Assembly: GCF_000969985.1 (NCBI RefSeq)
Contig: NZ_CP009526.1
Coordinates: forward strand, 3,782,001 to 3,846,000
Length of the DNA: 64,000 bases
Reading direction: 5' to 3'
Origin: Methanosarcina barkeri str. Wiesmoor
GTDB lineage: Archaea > Halobacteriota > Methanosarcinia > Methanosarcinales > Methanosarcinaceae
Position 1 is the first letter of the stretch. Each line of letters opens with the position of its first letter. This document shows, piece after piece, positions 12,342 to 20,189 of the stretch. Both the position numbers and the translations under genes were made by a program. Below the pieces are notes generated by a model. It saw nothing but the letters and a program-made list of their open reading frames with translations. It made no database searches and was not told where the DNA came from.

Positions 12342-12425
12342 TTAATATATTTGGATTGTGAAAGTATGGAGTGAATGGAATAAGTTTTGAAGTGGAATCT
12401 TTCAGAATACGGAGGAATCAATAAA

Positions 12426-13943
12426 ATGAAGACATATACAGCAGTTTTGCTGGTCGCTCTCACTCTCTTACTTGCAGTATCAGCAGACACTGCAAATGCA
12501 GCAGACAATACAAGCAGTATATCCAATGTTTGTGATGTAGACGGCACCGATTATAAAAGCGAGAGTTGGTCTAACGAACAATATCCGGTAATCGATTTAT
12601 TTGGAGATAAATATGTTCCGCTGTTTACCGCCAATGGAAACACTGGGAATGTACATGTTAACAAGCTTGCCAAGTTGATTCTTGACAATAATGAAACTTA
12701 CACACTCAAAGATGGTGAAAAAGTCGATCTTAGCAATGGATACGCTTTTGAAGCCAAGCAGATCAATATTGACAATGAGGAAATATGGTTTGAGTTCAGT
12801 AAGGATGGAAAATATATTGCTGATCAAATAGTCTCAGCCAATAATGATGCCAATAGGACATGGACCGTTACCCTTGACAATGTTCAGGGTGAAAATAGTG
12901 TCGTTGTCATGAAAGTTCATATCAAGAATCTATTTGTGGGTGCGGAAACCAGAGTCGTTTGGATTGATGGCATCTGGCTGACTGACTACACAAATGCTAC
13001 AACTCTCAAGGTAGGGGATAAAATAGGAGAATTCACGCTTGATAAAATCGTCAGCGGAGTAAATACCTCTAACATGGGAAGTCTTGTTTTTGAAAATACT
13101 ACGGGGTCTTCAGTAGCTTGTAATGTTGTAGGTACCAATTATAAATGTGACAGCTGGTCTAATGTTACAGCAGACACTGCAAACACAGCAGACACTGCAA
13201 GTACAGTAGATACTACAAATACAGCAGATAATGTAAGCAATATAACCAACATTTGTAATGTTGTTAGTACCGATTATAAATGGGTATCTAATGAACAATA
13301 TCCAGTAATCGATTTATTTGGAGATAAATATATTCCGCTGTTTACCGCCAATGGAAACATTGGGAATATACATGTTAACAAGCTTGCCAAATTGATTCTT
13401 GACAATAATGACACTTACACTCTCAAAGACGGTGAAAAACTCGATCTCAGCAATGGATACGCTCTTGAAGCCAAGCAGATCAATATTGACAATGAGGAAA
13501 TATGGTTTGAGTTCAGTAAGGATGGAAAATATATTGCTGATCAAATAGTCTCAGTCAATACTGATGATAATAGGACATGGACTGTTACCCTTGACAATGT
13601 TCAGGGTGAAAATAATATCGTTGTCATGAAAGTTCATATCAAGAATCTATTTGTGGGTACAGTAGACAAAATCGTTTGGATTGATGGAATCTGGCTTACT
13701 GACTATACAAATGCTACAACCCTTAAAATCGGGGATAAAGTCGGAGAATTCACGCTTGAAAAAATAGTTAGCGGGACAAATTCATCTAACCTGGGAAGTC
13801 TTGCTTTCAAGAAAACTCAAGCTGTTGATTCTTCTTCACCTACATCCGAAGAGGGATCGGTTGTATCCATTAACAAGGGTATAAGCTTATCCACTCCATG
13901 GCATTTGGACTTCTTGAAGTTTATCACAAACAAATTTCGATGA
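12426..13943 (+). CDS. Exported protein with two S-layer duplication domains (DUF1608)
   Basis: The start is ATG at 12426 behind GGAGGA (12411-12416). A signal peptide (KTYTAVLLVALTLLLAVSA, cleavage around AxA in NAADN) is followed by two copies of the Methanosarcina S-layer family domain, each with YPVIDLFGDKYVPLF, GYAxEAKQINIDNEEIWFEF, TWTVTLDNVQGEN and WIDGIWLTDYTNATTLK. The copies are joined by a Thr/Ala/Asp-rich linker of repeated TADTAN units. This domain forms the S-layer lattice in Methanosarcina; the main S-layer protein has two such domains plus a C-terminal anchor. This 505-residue protein ends in STPWHLDFLKFITNKFR without a hydrophobic anchor, so it may be loosely held or secreted. 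Confidence 0.92.
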   Translation: MKTYTAVLLVALTLLLAVSADTANAADNTSSISNVCDVDGTDYKSESWSNEQYPVIDLFGDKYVPLFTANGNTGNVHVNKLAKLILDNNETYTLKDGEKVDLSNGYAFEAKQINIDNEEIWFEFSKDGKYIADQIVSANNDANRTWTVTLDNVQGENSVVVMKVHIKNLFVGAETRVVWIDGIWLTDYTNATTLKVGDKIGEFTLDKIVSGVNTSNMGSLVFENTTGSSVACNVVGTNYKCDSWSNVTADTANTADTASTVDTTNTADNVSNITNICNVVSTDYKWVSNEQYPVIDLFGDKYIPLFTANGNIGNIHVNKLAKLILDNNDTYTLKDGEKLDLSNGYALEAKQINIDNEEIWFEFSKDGKYIADQIVSVNTDDNRTWTVTLDNVQGENNIVVMKVHIKNLFVGTVDKIVWIDGIWLTDYTNATTLKIGDKVGEFTLEKIVSGTNSSNLGSLAFKKTQAVDSSSPTSEEGSVVSINKGISLSTPWHLDFLKFITNKFR

Positions 13944-14355
13944 AGAATAACTCAGCTCTACAAAATCATCAAACGCTACATTCTAAAGAAAAAGTCCACA
14001 GACAATTTCCAGCTTTGTAGAAATCCTCTTTAAGTAGACAGAAACGGATCACCTTAAATTATCGAAAATCCAGTCCACATCTTGAGTCATAGGTATATTA
14101 AGACTACTCCAAGAAGATTTCTACAGAGCTTAATTTCCTTACTTCATGTTTTTATCGGTCTAGCAATAAAAGTTGGGTCTTATCGAAAGACATTATATTG
14201 TTTTCCTAGTTTTTGATCGATAACGGTCAACGATTAGTGGAAACTATGCTAGATTTTGAAGATCCAATAAACTACTACAAAACTGAGTATAGTTAATTCG
14301 CCCTGGACTAATTAAAGCCCAGAGGACGGCTTAACAACCTGCAAGTAGCAGGAAC
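13944..14355. other. Gene-free stretch with a 20-bp imperfect inverted repeat
   Basis: No coding signal. AGCTTTGTAGAAATCCTCTT at 14011-14030 matches the complement of 14111-14130 at 18 of 20 positions, with 80 bp between. This could be a MITE-like element or a long hairpin behind the first DUF1608 gene. A partial third copy (CAGCTCTACAAAATC) lies near 13950. Confidence 0.55.
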
Positions 14356-14371
14356 AAGGAGGAACAGTAAA

Positions 14372-16225
14372 ATGAAAAAATATAAAGTAATTGCACTGGT
14401 TGCTCTTACTCTATTAATTTCAATAACAGCAAACGCCGGAGGTGCAACAGACAATAATTGCAGTAAAGATAATATTTGTAATGTTGTCGGCACCCATTAT
14501 AAATGCAGTACTTGGTCTAGCGAACAATATCCAGTAATTGATTTATTTGGGGAGAAAAATGTTCCATTGCTTGCTAATCACTGTAATATCTGGAATGCAC
14601 ATGTTAACAAGCTTGCCAGGTTGATTCTTGACAATAATGAGACTTATACCCTCAAAGATGGCGAAAAACTCGACCTTGGTCAGGGATATGCTCTTGAAGC
14701 AAAGCAGATTAACATTGATGGAATGAAGGTTTGGCTTGAATTTACCAGGGATGGAAAATATGTTGCTGATCAAATTGTCTCGGTTAATACTGATAGCAAC
14801 AAGACATGGACTGTTGCCCTTGACAATATTCAGGGTGAAAACAATATTGTTGTCATGAAAGTTTATGTCAATCAGCTATTTGCGGGGGCATTAGACAATA
14901 TCGTTCAGATTGAAGGTATCTGGCTAATTGACTATGCAAATGCCAAGACCCTTAACATTGGAGATGAAATCGAAGGATTCACACTTCAGCAAATCATCAA
15001 TGGAACAAATTCGTCTAATCTTGGAAGCCTTATTTTCAAGAATGCTACGGAATCTCCTGTAAGCTATAATGTTGTCAGTACCAGCTATAAATGCAGTAAT
15101 TGGTCTAATGAACGATACCCAGTAATTGATTTGTTTGGAGAGAAGAATGTTCCATTGCTAGCCAATAATGATTCAATCTGGCAATCACATGTTGACAAGC
15201 TTGCAAGGTTAATGGTTGATAGTAATGAGACTTACGCTCTCAAAAACGGTGACAAATTTGACTTTGGCAATGGTTACTCTCTCAAAGTCAGACAGATCGA
15301 CATTGATAGTGAGAAAGTCTGGCTAGAGTTCACTAAAGACGGACAACATATAGCAGATAAAAATCTCTCCGTTAATACTAGTGATGAAAACAAGACATGG
15401 ACTGTTACTCTTGACAACGTTCAGGGTGAAAATAATATTGTTGTCATGAAAGTCCACGTCAAACAGTTATTCGTAGGTGTGGAGAACTGCATCGTTTTTG
15501 TCGACGGTATTTGGCTAATTGACTATGCAAATGCCAGAACCCTTAATATTGGAGATGAAATTGGAGGATTCACACTTCAACAAATCATCAATGGAACAAA
15601 TTCGTCTAACCTTGGGAGCCTTATTTTCAAAAATGCTACGGACTCTCCTGTAAGCTGTAATGTTGTCAGTACCAGTTATGAGTGTAATAGCTGGTCTAAT
15701 GAACGATATCCAGTAATTGATTTTTTTGGGGAGAAGAATGTTCCACTGGTTGCCGATTGCGATCCAATCTGGAAATGTCATGTTGACAAGCTTGCCAGGC
15801 TCGTTCTTGACAGCGGTGACAAATTTACCCTGAAGGCCGGCAGTAAACTTGGTCTCGGCCAGGGCTACAGTATCAAGGCCAAGCAGGTTGACGTTGCCGG
15901 CAAGAAGGTTTGGCTTGAATTCTATAAAAATGGAAAATATGTAGATGATACTATCCTTTCAACTGGTGAAAATTGGACTTGCTATCTTGACAAAATTCAA
16001 GGTGAAGGCAATGTTCCTGTCCTGAAAGTCTATGTTAGGAACGTCTATCAAAGTGGAAACAACAGTGTTGTCCAGATTGACGGGATCTGGCTGATTGACT
16101 ATTCAAATGCCAGAACCCTCAAAATTGGGGATAAAATCGGAGGATTCACACTTGAGGAAATCGTTAGTGGAGTAAATAAATCTAACATGGGAAGCCTTGT
16201 TTTCAGAAAAATCTCAAATAGCTAA
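14372..16225 (+). CDS. Exported protein with three S-layer duplication domains (DUF1608)
   Basis: The start ATG at 14372 follows AAGGAGG (14355-14361). The signal peptide KKYKVIALVALTLLISITANA precedes three DUF1608 copies, each opening with a Cys-containing segment (NVVxTxYKCxxWS) and YPVIDLFGEKNVPLL and closing with IDGIWLIDYANARTLxIGD. Cys residues recur at equivalent places in each copy and could form disulfides. Three copies is unusual, since the lattice-forming S-layer proteins have two. No C-terminal membrane anchor is visible (the end is GSLVFRKISNS). It is a tandem paralogue of the gene at 12426; both probably coat or decorate the cell surface. Confidence 0.92.
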   Translation: MKKYKVIALVALTLLISITANAGGATDNNCSKDNICNVVGTHYKCSTWSSEQYPVIDLFGEKNVPLLANHCNIWNAHVNKLARLILDNNETYTLKDGEKLDLGQGYALEAKQINIDGMKVWLEFTRDGKYVADQIVSVNTDSNKTWTVALDNIQGENNIVVMKVYVNQLFAGALDNIVQIEGIWLIDYANAKTLNIGDEIEGFTLQQIINGTNSSNLGSLIFKNATESPVSYNVVSTSYKCSNWSNERYPVIDLFGEKNVPLLANNDSIWQSHVDKLARLMVDSNETYALKNGDKFDFGNGYSLKVRQIDIDSEKVWLEFTKDGQHIADKNLSVNTSDENKTWTVTLDNVQGENNIVVMKVHVKQLFVGVENCIVFVDGIWLIDYANARTLNIGDEIGGFTLQQIINGTNSSNLGSLIFKNATDSPVSCNVVSTSYECNSWSNERYPVIDFFGEKNVPLVADCDPIWKCHVDKLARLVLDSGDKFTLKAGSKLGLGQGYSIKAKQVDVAGKKVWLEFYKNGKYVDDTILSTGENWTCYLDKIQGEGNVPVLKVYVRNVYQSGNNSVVQIDGIWLIDYSNARTLKIGDKIGGFTLEEIVSGVNKSNMGSLVFRKISNS

Positions 16226-16238
16226 CTACCTGCACCAC

Positions 16239-16367
16239 CCACCTTAAAAAACAAACATTACTCACCTTAAAAACAAACATTACCCACCCTAAAAACAAAC
16301 ATTACTCACCCTAAAAACAAACATTACCCACCCTAAAAACAAACATTACCCACCTTAAAAACAAATT
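16239..16367. repeat. 22-bp minisatellite downstream of the second DUF1608 gene
   Basis: Nearly six tandem copies of a 22-bp unit (CACCCTAAAAACAAACATT plus ACY), with C/T changes at two positions. There are no spacers, so it is not a CRISPR array. Confidence 0.9.
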
Positions 16368-16751: not shown

Positions 16752-18092
16752 ATGAAAAGCAAAGTTATATCAATGATACCGATTTCCACTTTTTCGTTTT
16801 CATCCTCATCTATTGAAATATCTAATAAAGCACGTAGGGGATGTAACATCTTAAAAGCTTTTGGAATAGCGGCACTTACGGTTTTAACACTGGTGAGTGT
16901 CGCAGGTGCATCATCATTCGCATATATTGCAAACTTAGAGAGTAACAGTGTTTCTGTAATTGACACTGCTACAGATACTGTTACAGCTACGGTGAATGTG
17001 GGAATCGAGCCCTCAGGAGCTGCAGTCAGTCCGGACGGAACAAGAGTATATGTGACAAACTGTATGAGCAATAGTGTCTCTGTAATTGACGCAGCCAAAA
17101 ATAAGGTCATAGACACAGTATACGTAGGAAGCTATCCTTAGGGAGTTGCAGTCACTCCAGATGGAACAAAGGTGTATGTTGCAAACGCTGCAAGCAACGA
17201 TATCTCTGTAATTGACACGGCAACAAACAATGTTACAGCCACAGTAAAAGTAGGAAACTTGCCTTACAAAATTACAGTCGCACCGGACGGAAAAAAGGTA
17301 TATGCTGTGAACTCTGGTATTCCTCCTGACTACCAGGGTACTGTTTCTGTAATTGACACAGCAACAAACACTATTACAACGACAGTAAATGTGGAAAAAA
17401 ATCCACATGGAATTGCAGTCACTCCAGATGGAACAAAGGTGTATGTGGTTAACTCCAATAGTTATCCTTACTATAAAGGTACTGTTTCTGTAATTGACAC
17501 GGCAACAAACAATGTTACTGCGACAGTAAATGTTGGAAGCTTGCCACATGGAATTGCAGTCAGTCCGAATGGAACGAGAGCATACGTAACGGTAGATATA
17601 CCTGGTGGATGTTCAGGTAAAGGTAACATTGATTCAACTTCACATACAGGTACTGTTTCTGTAATTGACACAACCAAAAACGAGGTTATAGATAGAGTGA
17701 GTGTCGGAAATTACCCTTACGAAGTTGCAGTCACTCCAGATGGAAATGAGGTTTATGCAGTGAACTATGGGAGTAACACTACTTCTGTAATTGACACCGC
17801 CACAAACAATGTTAATACTACGGTGCCCGTAGGAAGATCCCCTATTGCTGTGGGGATTGGTCCGGTAATAAAATCCAGTTCTACTATTGGATTAGGTGGT
17901 ACTTCTTTCTTAAAGCCTGTAAATCAAACCGAGAACCAGGCAAATGATACCGAGATGACAGCAAATGGAGGAACAGCGGGTAAGCAGAAAAGAGAATCTG
18001 TCACTACTCAGGCATCAATTCCTTTTCTAAGCTCTACTTGGGTACTTGTAGCAGTACTAGGGGCAGTTGCATTTGTTAGAAAGATGAATTAA
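16752..18092 (+). CDS. Seven-bladed YVTN beta-propeller surface protein with in-frame TAG
   Basis: The frame from ATG 16752 (GGGG about 7 nt upstream) to 18092 is open except for a TAG at 17139-17141. Each blade has the YVTN pattern (VYVTN..SVSVIDTATNxVTATVxVG..P.GVAVTPDG). I count seven blades, the usual ring, only if both sides of the TAG are joined; the TAG lies between blades two and three, at the position that is His or Tyr in sister repeats (PHGIAV, PYEVAV). In Methanosarcina UAG can be decoded as pyrrolysine, so the product may be a readthrough protein; otherwise this is a nonsense-mutated pseudogene. An N-terminal membrane segment (residues 36-55) and a C-terminal hydrophobic tail with basic end (WVLVAVLGAVAFVRKMN) indicate surface anchoring. 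Confidence 0.78.
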
Positions 18093-18461: not shown

Positions 18462-20189
18462 ATGTTAAAAAGTATATTAATTACGATGTTATTATTACTT
18501 TCTACAGGTATAGCATTCGCAAGCCCGGTATCAGAAGATCAAAATTCTAATGTTACACAGCTTAACAATACACAGCTTAACAATACACAGCTTAACAATA
18601 CACAGCTTAAAGTTATGCAGTTTGAAGAAATTCTTCCTAAAGAAGAAGGATTCTCAGTAAGTTATGCATCATGGAGCCCTGATGGACAATACCTGCTGAT
18701 AACCTCTTCCAAATCGATTTCTCTTTCACATAGTATTCACAAGCACTATCTCTTAGACACGAAATCCCGTACATTGGGAGAAATCGATTATGGAGTAAAA
18801 GAGTTTAACAGTTATTCCATACCCGGGGCAGAGTGGTCTCCATCTGGGGACAAGATATATTTTGGAGTTTCAAAGGTTGAACGAACAAACACTGGCTATT
18901 GTTTTGTTATTTGTAATCCCGATGGTACGAATTTAAAATGTATAGGCACCAACTACACGGACCTTTCAAGCATATTAGAAAACATTGGGAATATTGGTTT
19001 TCAGAGAAAGCTTAAATGGAGTCCTGATTCCAGTAAAATCACGTTTGAATGGGAAAACCCAGAAAATCACTCTACTAAAGTGTATACTGCAAGCAGAAAT
19101 GGTACAAATGCCCGTGAACTTTCTTCAGCTACATATCCACAGCCTGTCTGGTATGATTCTGACAAAATCTTCATTACTACAGATGAAGGATCTGTAGATC
19201 TTATCAACGAGAGTGGGGATTTAATTCAGACTTTCCAGCCGGAAGATAATGATGAAAAATACTGTGCTTTTTCACTCAGTCCTGACAGGAAAAAAATACT
19301 CCTGGTTTCTGGACTGCCAGGAAGCTTCGATTTGCAGACCTATATATCTAACACTGACGGTTCGGAATTGAAAGGAAAAATTTCTTATTACGATGGCACC
19401 GAAAAGCGTATCTTAACAAAAGAATACTGGCAGCCAAACGGTTCATGTCTTCTGGTAAATCAGAATGGTAATCTCTATCTCGTAGAGGGAGACGAAAATA
19501 AAAAGTCTCTTTTGTATAAAGGTAATGCAAGCGAACCTCAATGGTTCCCTGATGGGAAGAAAATATTATTCGTTGAAGGTAAAAATAAACTGTATTCGAT
19601 CGATGTCGATGGAACTAACCTGACCTTCATAACCAGTTTCGGACTTACGTCCTCTTATTTCTGGGATTTATTCTGTGACCCTCTCGACGAAGCTAAAAAA
19701 TTTTCGATAAGCCCGTCTGGAGATCTGATAGTGTTCACATCTGCTCTTTACCCTGATACCGGAAAGATCATTGAAAATGAACCAGGCCCTTCAAAATGTC
19801 AAAACATTGCAGCTCCTTTATTCGTTGTCAACTCTGACAGTTCTAATCTCACTCAGATAACACCTACAATAAAAGGTAGACATGACATCTTAAGAGAGTG
19901 GAGCTCTAATGGAGAACGGCTTACTATAAGGTCTATTATGTTTTCTTCGGATAGTGACTGGGAGTATAAAGAAAATTCTCTTGTAGAATTAAATGCGACG
20001 AACTTTTCCTATATCTGGAAAAATATGCCTGTGAAGAAAATTACAGAGAATGAAAAGTCCAATACTGTTGATAATGTCCAGAGTAATAAATCCAGCTCTA
20101 TAAATACCTCAAAGGTTACTGAGAATGAGGAAAAAAGCAAGCAATCTACTTGCTTTTTCTTCTTACATTTTTTGCCTGTATCTGAATGA
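18462..20189 (+). CDS. Exported TolB-like (PD40) beta-propeller protein
   Basis: A signal peptide (MLKSILITMLLLLSTGIAFA) is followed by a Thr/Asn/Gln-rich segment with four NNTQL repeats (15-bp units) and then WD40-like PD40 repeats: ASWSPDGQYLLITSS, AEWSPSGDKIYFGVS, LKWSPDSSKITFEWE, FSLSPDRKKILLVSG, PQWFPDGKKILFVEG. TolB-type propellers are protein-binding; no catalytic domain accompanies it, so a ligand-binding or adhesion role is inferred. The C-terminus is odd: the coding frame runs through a terminator-like hairpin, giving a Cys/Phe-rich tail (KQSTCFFFLHFLPVSE) where sister proteins carry a membrane anchor, so a late frameshift is possible. No ribosome binding site better than TGGGA is seen. 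Confidence 0.82.
   Translation: MLKSILITMLLLLSTGIAFASPVSEDQNSNVTQLNNTQLNNTQLNNTQLKVMQFEEILPKEEGFSVSYASWSPDGQYLLITSSKSISLSHSIHKHYLLDTKSRTLGEIDYGVKEFNSYSIPGAEWSPSGDKIYFGVSKVERTNTGYCFVICNPDGTNLKCIGTNYTDLSSILENIGNIGFQRKLKWSPDSSKITFEWENPENHSTKVYTASRNGTNARELSSATYPQPVWYDSDKIFITTDEGSVDLINESGDLIQTFQPEDNDEKYCAFSLSPDRKKILLVSGLPGSFDLQTYISNTDGSELKGKISYYDGTEKRILTKEYWQPNGSCLLVNQNGNLYLVEGDENKKSLLYKGNASEPQWFPDGKKILFVEGKNKLYSIDVDGTNLTFITSFGLTSSYFWDLFCDPLDEAKKFSISPSGDLIVFTSALYPDTGKIIENEPGPSKCQNIAAPLFVVNSDSSNLTQITPTIKGRHDILREWSSNGERLTIRSIMFSSDSDWEYKENSLVELNATNFSYIWKNMPVKKITENEKSNTVDNVQSNKSSSINTSKVTENEEKSKQSTCFFFLHFLPVSE
20133..20165 (+). terminator. Terminator hairpin inside the 3' end of the TolB-like gene
   Basis: AAAAGCAAG at 20133-20141 pairs perfectly with CTTGCTTTT at 20149-20157 and a pyrimidine-rich tract follows. 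The stop codon of the gene lies 30 nt beyond it. Confidence 0.6.

Follow-up and report, generated by a model that had tools for sequence, protein, structure and literature searches.

Results

A propeller gene carrying one in-frame amber codon

The window (the whole 64,000-nucleotide stretch analyzed) contains a gene for a YVTN-repeat protein that is interrupted by a single in-frame TAG at codon 130, as counted from the ATG at 16752 (Table 1). Past the TAG, the frame continues for 316 further codons up to its TAA (18090-18092), with neither a second stop nor a frameshift. End-to-end alignment with orthologues revealed that the coding sequence is conserved on either side of the TAG, with identities over the whole length of 91% (G003), 88% (G030), and 74% (G014), and with 77% identity across residues 1-390 of the G012 orthologue. 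Sister genomes each carry the orthologue as one uninterrupted frame, so the continuity of the frame across the TAG is not due to chance. The first-pass annotation of this DNA had placed both flanks of the TAG in one frame of an otherwise intact gene, and the G003 orthologue, an open frame that aligns to it without gaps, confirms this.

Table 1. Features of the propeller gene, in positions of the window
Feature	Position	Strand	Description	Evidence
Read-through frame	16752..18092	+	446 aa plus TAA; signal-like N-terminus, 7-bladed YVTN beta-propeller, C-terminal membrane helix	Translation with TAG as a residue; orthologues open at full length; AlphaFold model
ORF terminated by TAG	16752..17141	+	129 aa: N-terminus, blade 1, most of blade 2	
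In-frame TAG	17139..17141	+	Codon 130; TGG in the closest orthologue; seen in this genome only	
YVTN blade 1	16917..17045	+	aa 56-98	Sequence repeats, model strands
YVTN blade 2	17046..17171	+	aa 99-140; TAG at start of fourth strand	Repeats, model strands
YVTN blade 3	17172..17297	+	aa 141-182; GTG 17172 at its start is the earliest possible restart past the TAG	Model strands
YVTN blade 4	17298..17438	+	aa 183-229	Repeats, model strands
YVTN blade 5	17439..17579	+	aa 230-276	Repeats, model strands
YVTN blade 6	17580..17750	+	aa 277-333	Repeats, model strands
YVTN blade 7	17751..17864	+	aa 334-371	Repeats, model strands
C-terminal hydrophobic helix, probable membrane anchor	18033..18086	+	aa 428-445, after a low-confidence linker	Sequence; model helix H428-445, low confidence

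The read-through protein matched TIGR02276 (YVTN repeat) in seven stretches, at 296.9 bits against a cut-off of 27.85. Its AlphaFold model, which was built from an alignment of two sequences, has 28 strands, i.e., seven blades of four, at a pLDDT of ~95; the N- and C-terminal extensions are of low confidence, and a C-terminal helix is present. PDB 1L0Q, a YVTN propeller from an archaeal surface-layer protein, was the top match by sequence as well as by fold (for the read-through model, Foldseek E = 2e-33 and 52% identity). Both are YVTN propellers, and 1L0Q is an archaeal surface protein that carries a PKD domain, whereas the protein encoded here has a linker and a C-terminal helix instead, plus the amber codon. 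The gene product is probably a membrane-anchored, seven-bladed YVTN propeller, presumably located at the cell surface.

Within this fold, the TAG adjoins the residue that opens strand four of blade 2 (motif VGxxP-x-GVAVxPDG). Termination there would leave the N-terminus, blade 1, and the first three blade 2 strands, and the earlier claim that seven blades are reached only by read-through holds. Expression in two pieces, with a restart at GTG 17172 and a second piece that either assembles with the first or acts alone, is very improbable. Although this GTG lies 30 bases past the TAG and at the border of blade 3, it has no preceding Shine-Dalgarno-like sequence, and within 600 bases past the TAG there is no in-frame ATG. 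The resulting 306-aa product (from codon 141) would lack an N-terminal signal, and the sister genomes carry one continuous gene.

Surroundings of the propeller gene

Between the propeller gene and an S-layer gene (14372-16225) sits a tandem array (16237-16365) of 5.8 copies of the 22-base unit ACCCACCCTAAAAACAAACATT, with a 93% match. A perfect 15-base tandem repeat of 3.8 copies (18554-18610), which encodes a repeated five-residue QLNNT, falls early in the following gene (18462-20189). The S-layer genes at 12387-16225 contain many mutually similar pieces in G000 (the host genome), G003, and G030, with several matches per stretch, which is what repeated duplication or gene conversion would produce. 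At the nucleotide level, the window ceases to resemble the syntenic G003 and G030 stretches at ~26.1-26.2 kb; the remainder (26200-64000) contains several ORFs of great length (up to 2281 aa), and short repeats were all that this remainder shared with the compared G003 and G030 stretches.

Codon 130 in orthologues and in other blades

TAG was found at codon 130 in one of the 11 aligned genes, that of G000. The orthologue comparison that the first-pass annotation had called for therefore gave a sense codon in every other aligned gene and a TAG private to the host genome: the codon is TGG in G003, TTA in G030, ACA in G014, and GAG in G012, with CAT or CAA in more distant homologues. A wider contig scan for homologues added one further record, apparently from the same MAG as G014. 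The TGG of G003 is one transition from TAG, and the GAG of G012, locally the most similar sequence, is one transversion away; these alignments point to Trp or Glu as the precursor residue. TAC, TAT, and CAG, from which the TAG had been proposed to differ by one change, were seen in none of the orthologues (W, L, T, E, H, or Q), and that proposal is set aside.

The equivalent position in the other six blades is occupied by S88, Y172, H219, H266, Y323, and I365. A previously noted correspondence to His or Tyr is accordingly correct for four of the six (Y172, H219, H266, and Y323) and incorrect for S88 and I365. As judged from the aligned sequences, the site is variable and its residue unconstrained. 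That the TAG reflects a sequencing or assembly error is highly implausible: the species is represented by one genome in the comparison, but the change is a substitution rather than a homopolymer indel, in a 4.9-Mb genome of two contigs with 99.95% completeness.

Capacity of the host genome to decode UAG

A tRNA-Pyl gene was identified in the host genome by an exact match over 68 bases to what we take to be the M. barkeri pylT sequence, and ARAGORN agreed. PylB was found as well, with ORFs alongside that were named pylS, pylC, and pylD by reading them; pylTSBCD lie in one cluster, adjoining a ramA-like gene and mtmB. Three mtmB copies and mttB each contain exactly one in-frame TAG. With pylTSBCD present, together with amber-containing mtmB and mttB, decoding of UAG as pyrrolysine is therefore available to this genome. 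The pyl and mtm genes, together with orthologues from Methanosarcina, place the host genome in that genus. An archaeal sRNA154 (Rfam RF02906, 122 bits) was also observed close to one mtmB copy, at L048 3197-3329.

An M. acetivorans reporter with an introduced UAG yielded mostly terminated product, with 20-30% pyrrolysine-containing full-length protein, and PYLIS is dispensable (PMC2933860). For methyltransferase genes, read-through of up to 97% has been reported (cited in PMC8211752).

RNA signals and selection around the TAG

An Rfam search around the propeller gene returned zero matches, PYLIS included, whereas a comparable search, used as a positive control, detected PYLIS_1 in each of the three mtmB genes (104-110 bits). 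The RNA 3' of the TAG folded no better than shuffled sequences (z = -0.46).

Changes were assigned to branches by parsimony using G003 and G030. After the TAG, the G000 branch accumulated 26 nonsynonymous and 14 synonymous changes (P = 0.20 against neutrality), compared with one nonsynonymous and four synonymous changes before it (before versus after, Fisher P = 0.14). The G003 branch had 13 nonsynonymous and 10 synonymous changes after the TAG (G000 versus G003, P = 0.59). The post-TAG changes on the G000 branch are not distinguishable from neutral, and the difference before versus after is not significant; the pattern leans towards relaxed constraint without establishing it, and the TAG is probably younger than the branch. 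Only about one further stop is predicted for the entire G000 branch under full neutrality, so that the clean frame past the TAG is weak evidence of constraint. The uneven divergence before and after the TAG suggests mosaic descent of the gene, by gene conversion or recombination, and because of this possibility the substitution counts are to be read with caution.

These observations bear on whether the propeller is a functional pyrrolysine protein, in which the UAG would be efficiently read and the full propeller would be the normal product, tied to pyrrolysine supply (methylamine growth). We consider this unlikely. The complete pyl system and accepted amber genes of the host, the intact downstream frame, the G directly after the TAG (likewise found in mtmB), and a site so variable among homologues that pyrrolysine could be tolerated are all consistent with it, but the TAG occurs in one genome only, its residue is not conserved, no PYLIS element was recognized, and there is no clear constraint past the TAG. 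Functional pyrrolysine sites on record are conserved and catalytic. The pyrrolysine read-through put forward in the first-pass annotation is thus upheld as biochemically possible, given pylTSBCD and the amber mtmB and mttB genes, but nothing marks the UAG as an evolved pyrrolysine site: the codon is unconserved and its residue unconstrained, PYLIS was not found, and clear downstream purifying selection is lacking.

Internal stops in the propeller family and across the genome

The propeller family has 24 matches in the host genome. Among the homologues listed from 31 genomes, five have internal stops, namely, the propeller gene described here, with TAG, and four others in which the stop is TAA or TGA, and the family therefore loses members by any stop codon. 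As a background, the window and ~740 kb of synteny blocks outside it were compared with 780 kb of G003, which gave 296 orthologous ORFs. The propeller gene was the only G000 ORF of at least 150 aa with a clean mid-gene stop in the compared stretches. This single clean case indicates that in-frame UAG does not accumulate freely, in contrast to what a fully accepted sense codon would do, in a sample with too few clean mid-gene stops for a test of TAG excess over TAA and TGA.

Two G003 genes with mid-gene TAGs, a NapH-like ferredoxin gene (W to TAG) and a membrane-protein gene (E to TAG), were rejected as candidates, as they also contain frameshifts and look decayed; the apparent mid-gene TAGs inspected in G003 all fall in genes that have frameshifts or additional stops. 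The first of these, a NapH-like polyferredoxin gene on the minus strand (L075 about 12813-13801; G003:C2 about 4072813-4073801), has its Trp to TAG change in GRG(W)CGWICFFGW and at least two frameshifts; the frame of its G000 counterpart (C2 about 495309-496469) is uninterrupted.

The family background is also relevant to a plain pseudogene, in which the gene would be silent or would yield just the 129-aa fragment, with read-through irrelevant. This is a stricter form of the explanation that we prefer below and overlaps it, and we regard it as possible, if somewhat doubtful. Truncation costs five whole blades and the anchor, the genome holds many homologues, and other members in the genus have TAA or TGA stops, all of which accord with a pseudogene. 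Yet the gene has a single disablement, and if it is transcribed, some read-through of its UAG would be expected in this genus (PMC2933860).

Discussion

The TAG in the propeller gene is, with high probability, a recent nonsense mutation that is neutral or mildly harmful and buffered by UAG suppression, and not a selected pyrrolysine site. Relatives are open, the stop is private to this genome and one substitution away from the TGG of the closest orthologue, the site is variable, and the remaining frame is intact, in agreement with the fresh nonsense mutation that had been named as one of two initial readings.

Under this explanation, a one-base substitution, at its simplest TGG (Trp) to TAG, would have arisen recently in one Methanosarcina lineage. 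A majority of ribosomes would halt at codon 130 and release a 129-aa fragment that neither closes the propeller nor carries the anchor. During expression of the pyl genes, with charged tRNA-Pyl present, a minority may insert pyrrolysine and make the complete protein; we infer both shares. With all of pylTSBCD in the genome, such minority read-through is to be expected, and it would proceed by general amber suppression, with no dedicated mRNA signal. A nonsense mutation and partial pyrrolysine read-through are compatible, as ribosomes in this genus would be expected to read a nonsense UAG some of the time. The propeller gene itself is most likely dispensable, there being many homologues in the genome.

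Several known systems resemble the one described here. In Thg1 of Methanosarcina acetivorans, as in the propeller, an amber codon occurs in one species with a sense codon in homologues, in a pyl host. Translation of that codon as pyrrolysine was shown by experiment, the residue is not essential, and neutral evolution was invoked (Heinemann et al. 2009, reviewed in PMC2933860), whereas for the propeller amber such translation is a prediction from sequence. The drift candidates reported in PMC3639795 are likewise recent single mutations to in-frame UAG that are not conserved elsewhere, although that screen was based on clusters of UAG homologues and the propeller is a single gene.

The genes for MtmB, MtbB, and MttB are likewise intact apart from one in-frame UAG, and lie in Methanosarcina genomes with pylTSBCD. 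Their UAG, however, is conserved, catalytic, and efficiently read, and mtmB has a PYLIS element, none of which was found for the propeller. It is quite unlikely that the propeller is a genuine cell-surface pyrrolysine protein, with efficient read-through on methylamine and a full-length product only when pyrrolysine is made.

As one case, the propeller gene leaves knowledge of pyrrolysine coding unchanged, and it is a warning that not every in-frame TAG in Methanosarcina is a functional pyrrolysine site. Read as a recent nonsense mutation, it provides a natural test case for the fate of a fresh amber mutation under amber suppression, be it termination, partial pyrrolysine insertion, or both, and it would be one more example, with Thg1 as precedent, of a neutral route by which pyrrolysine may enter proteins.
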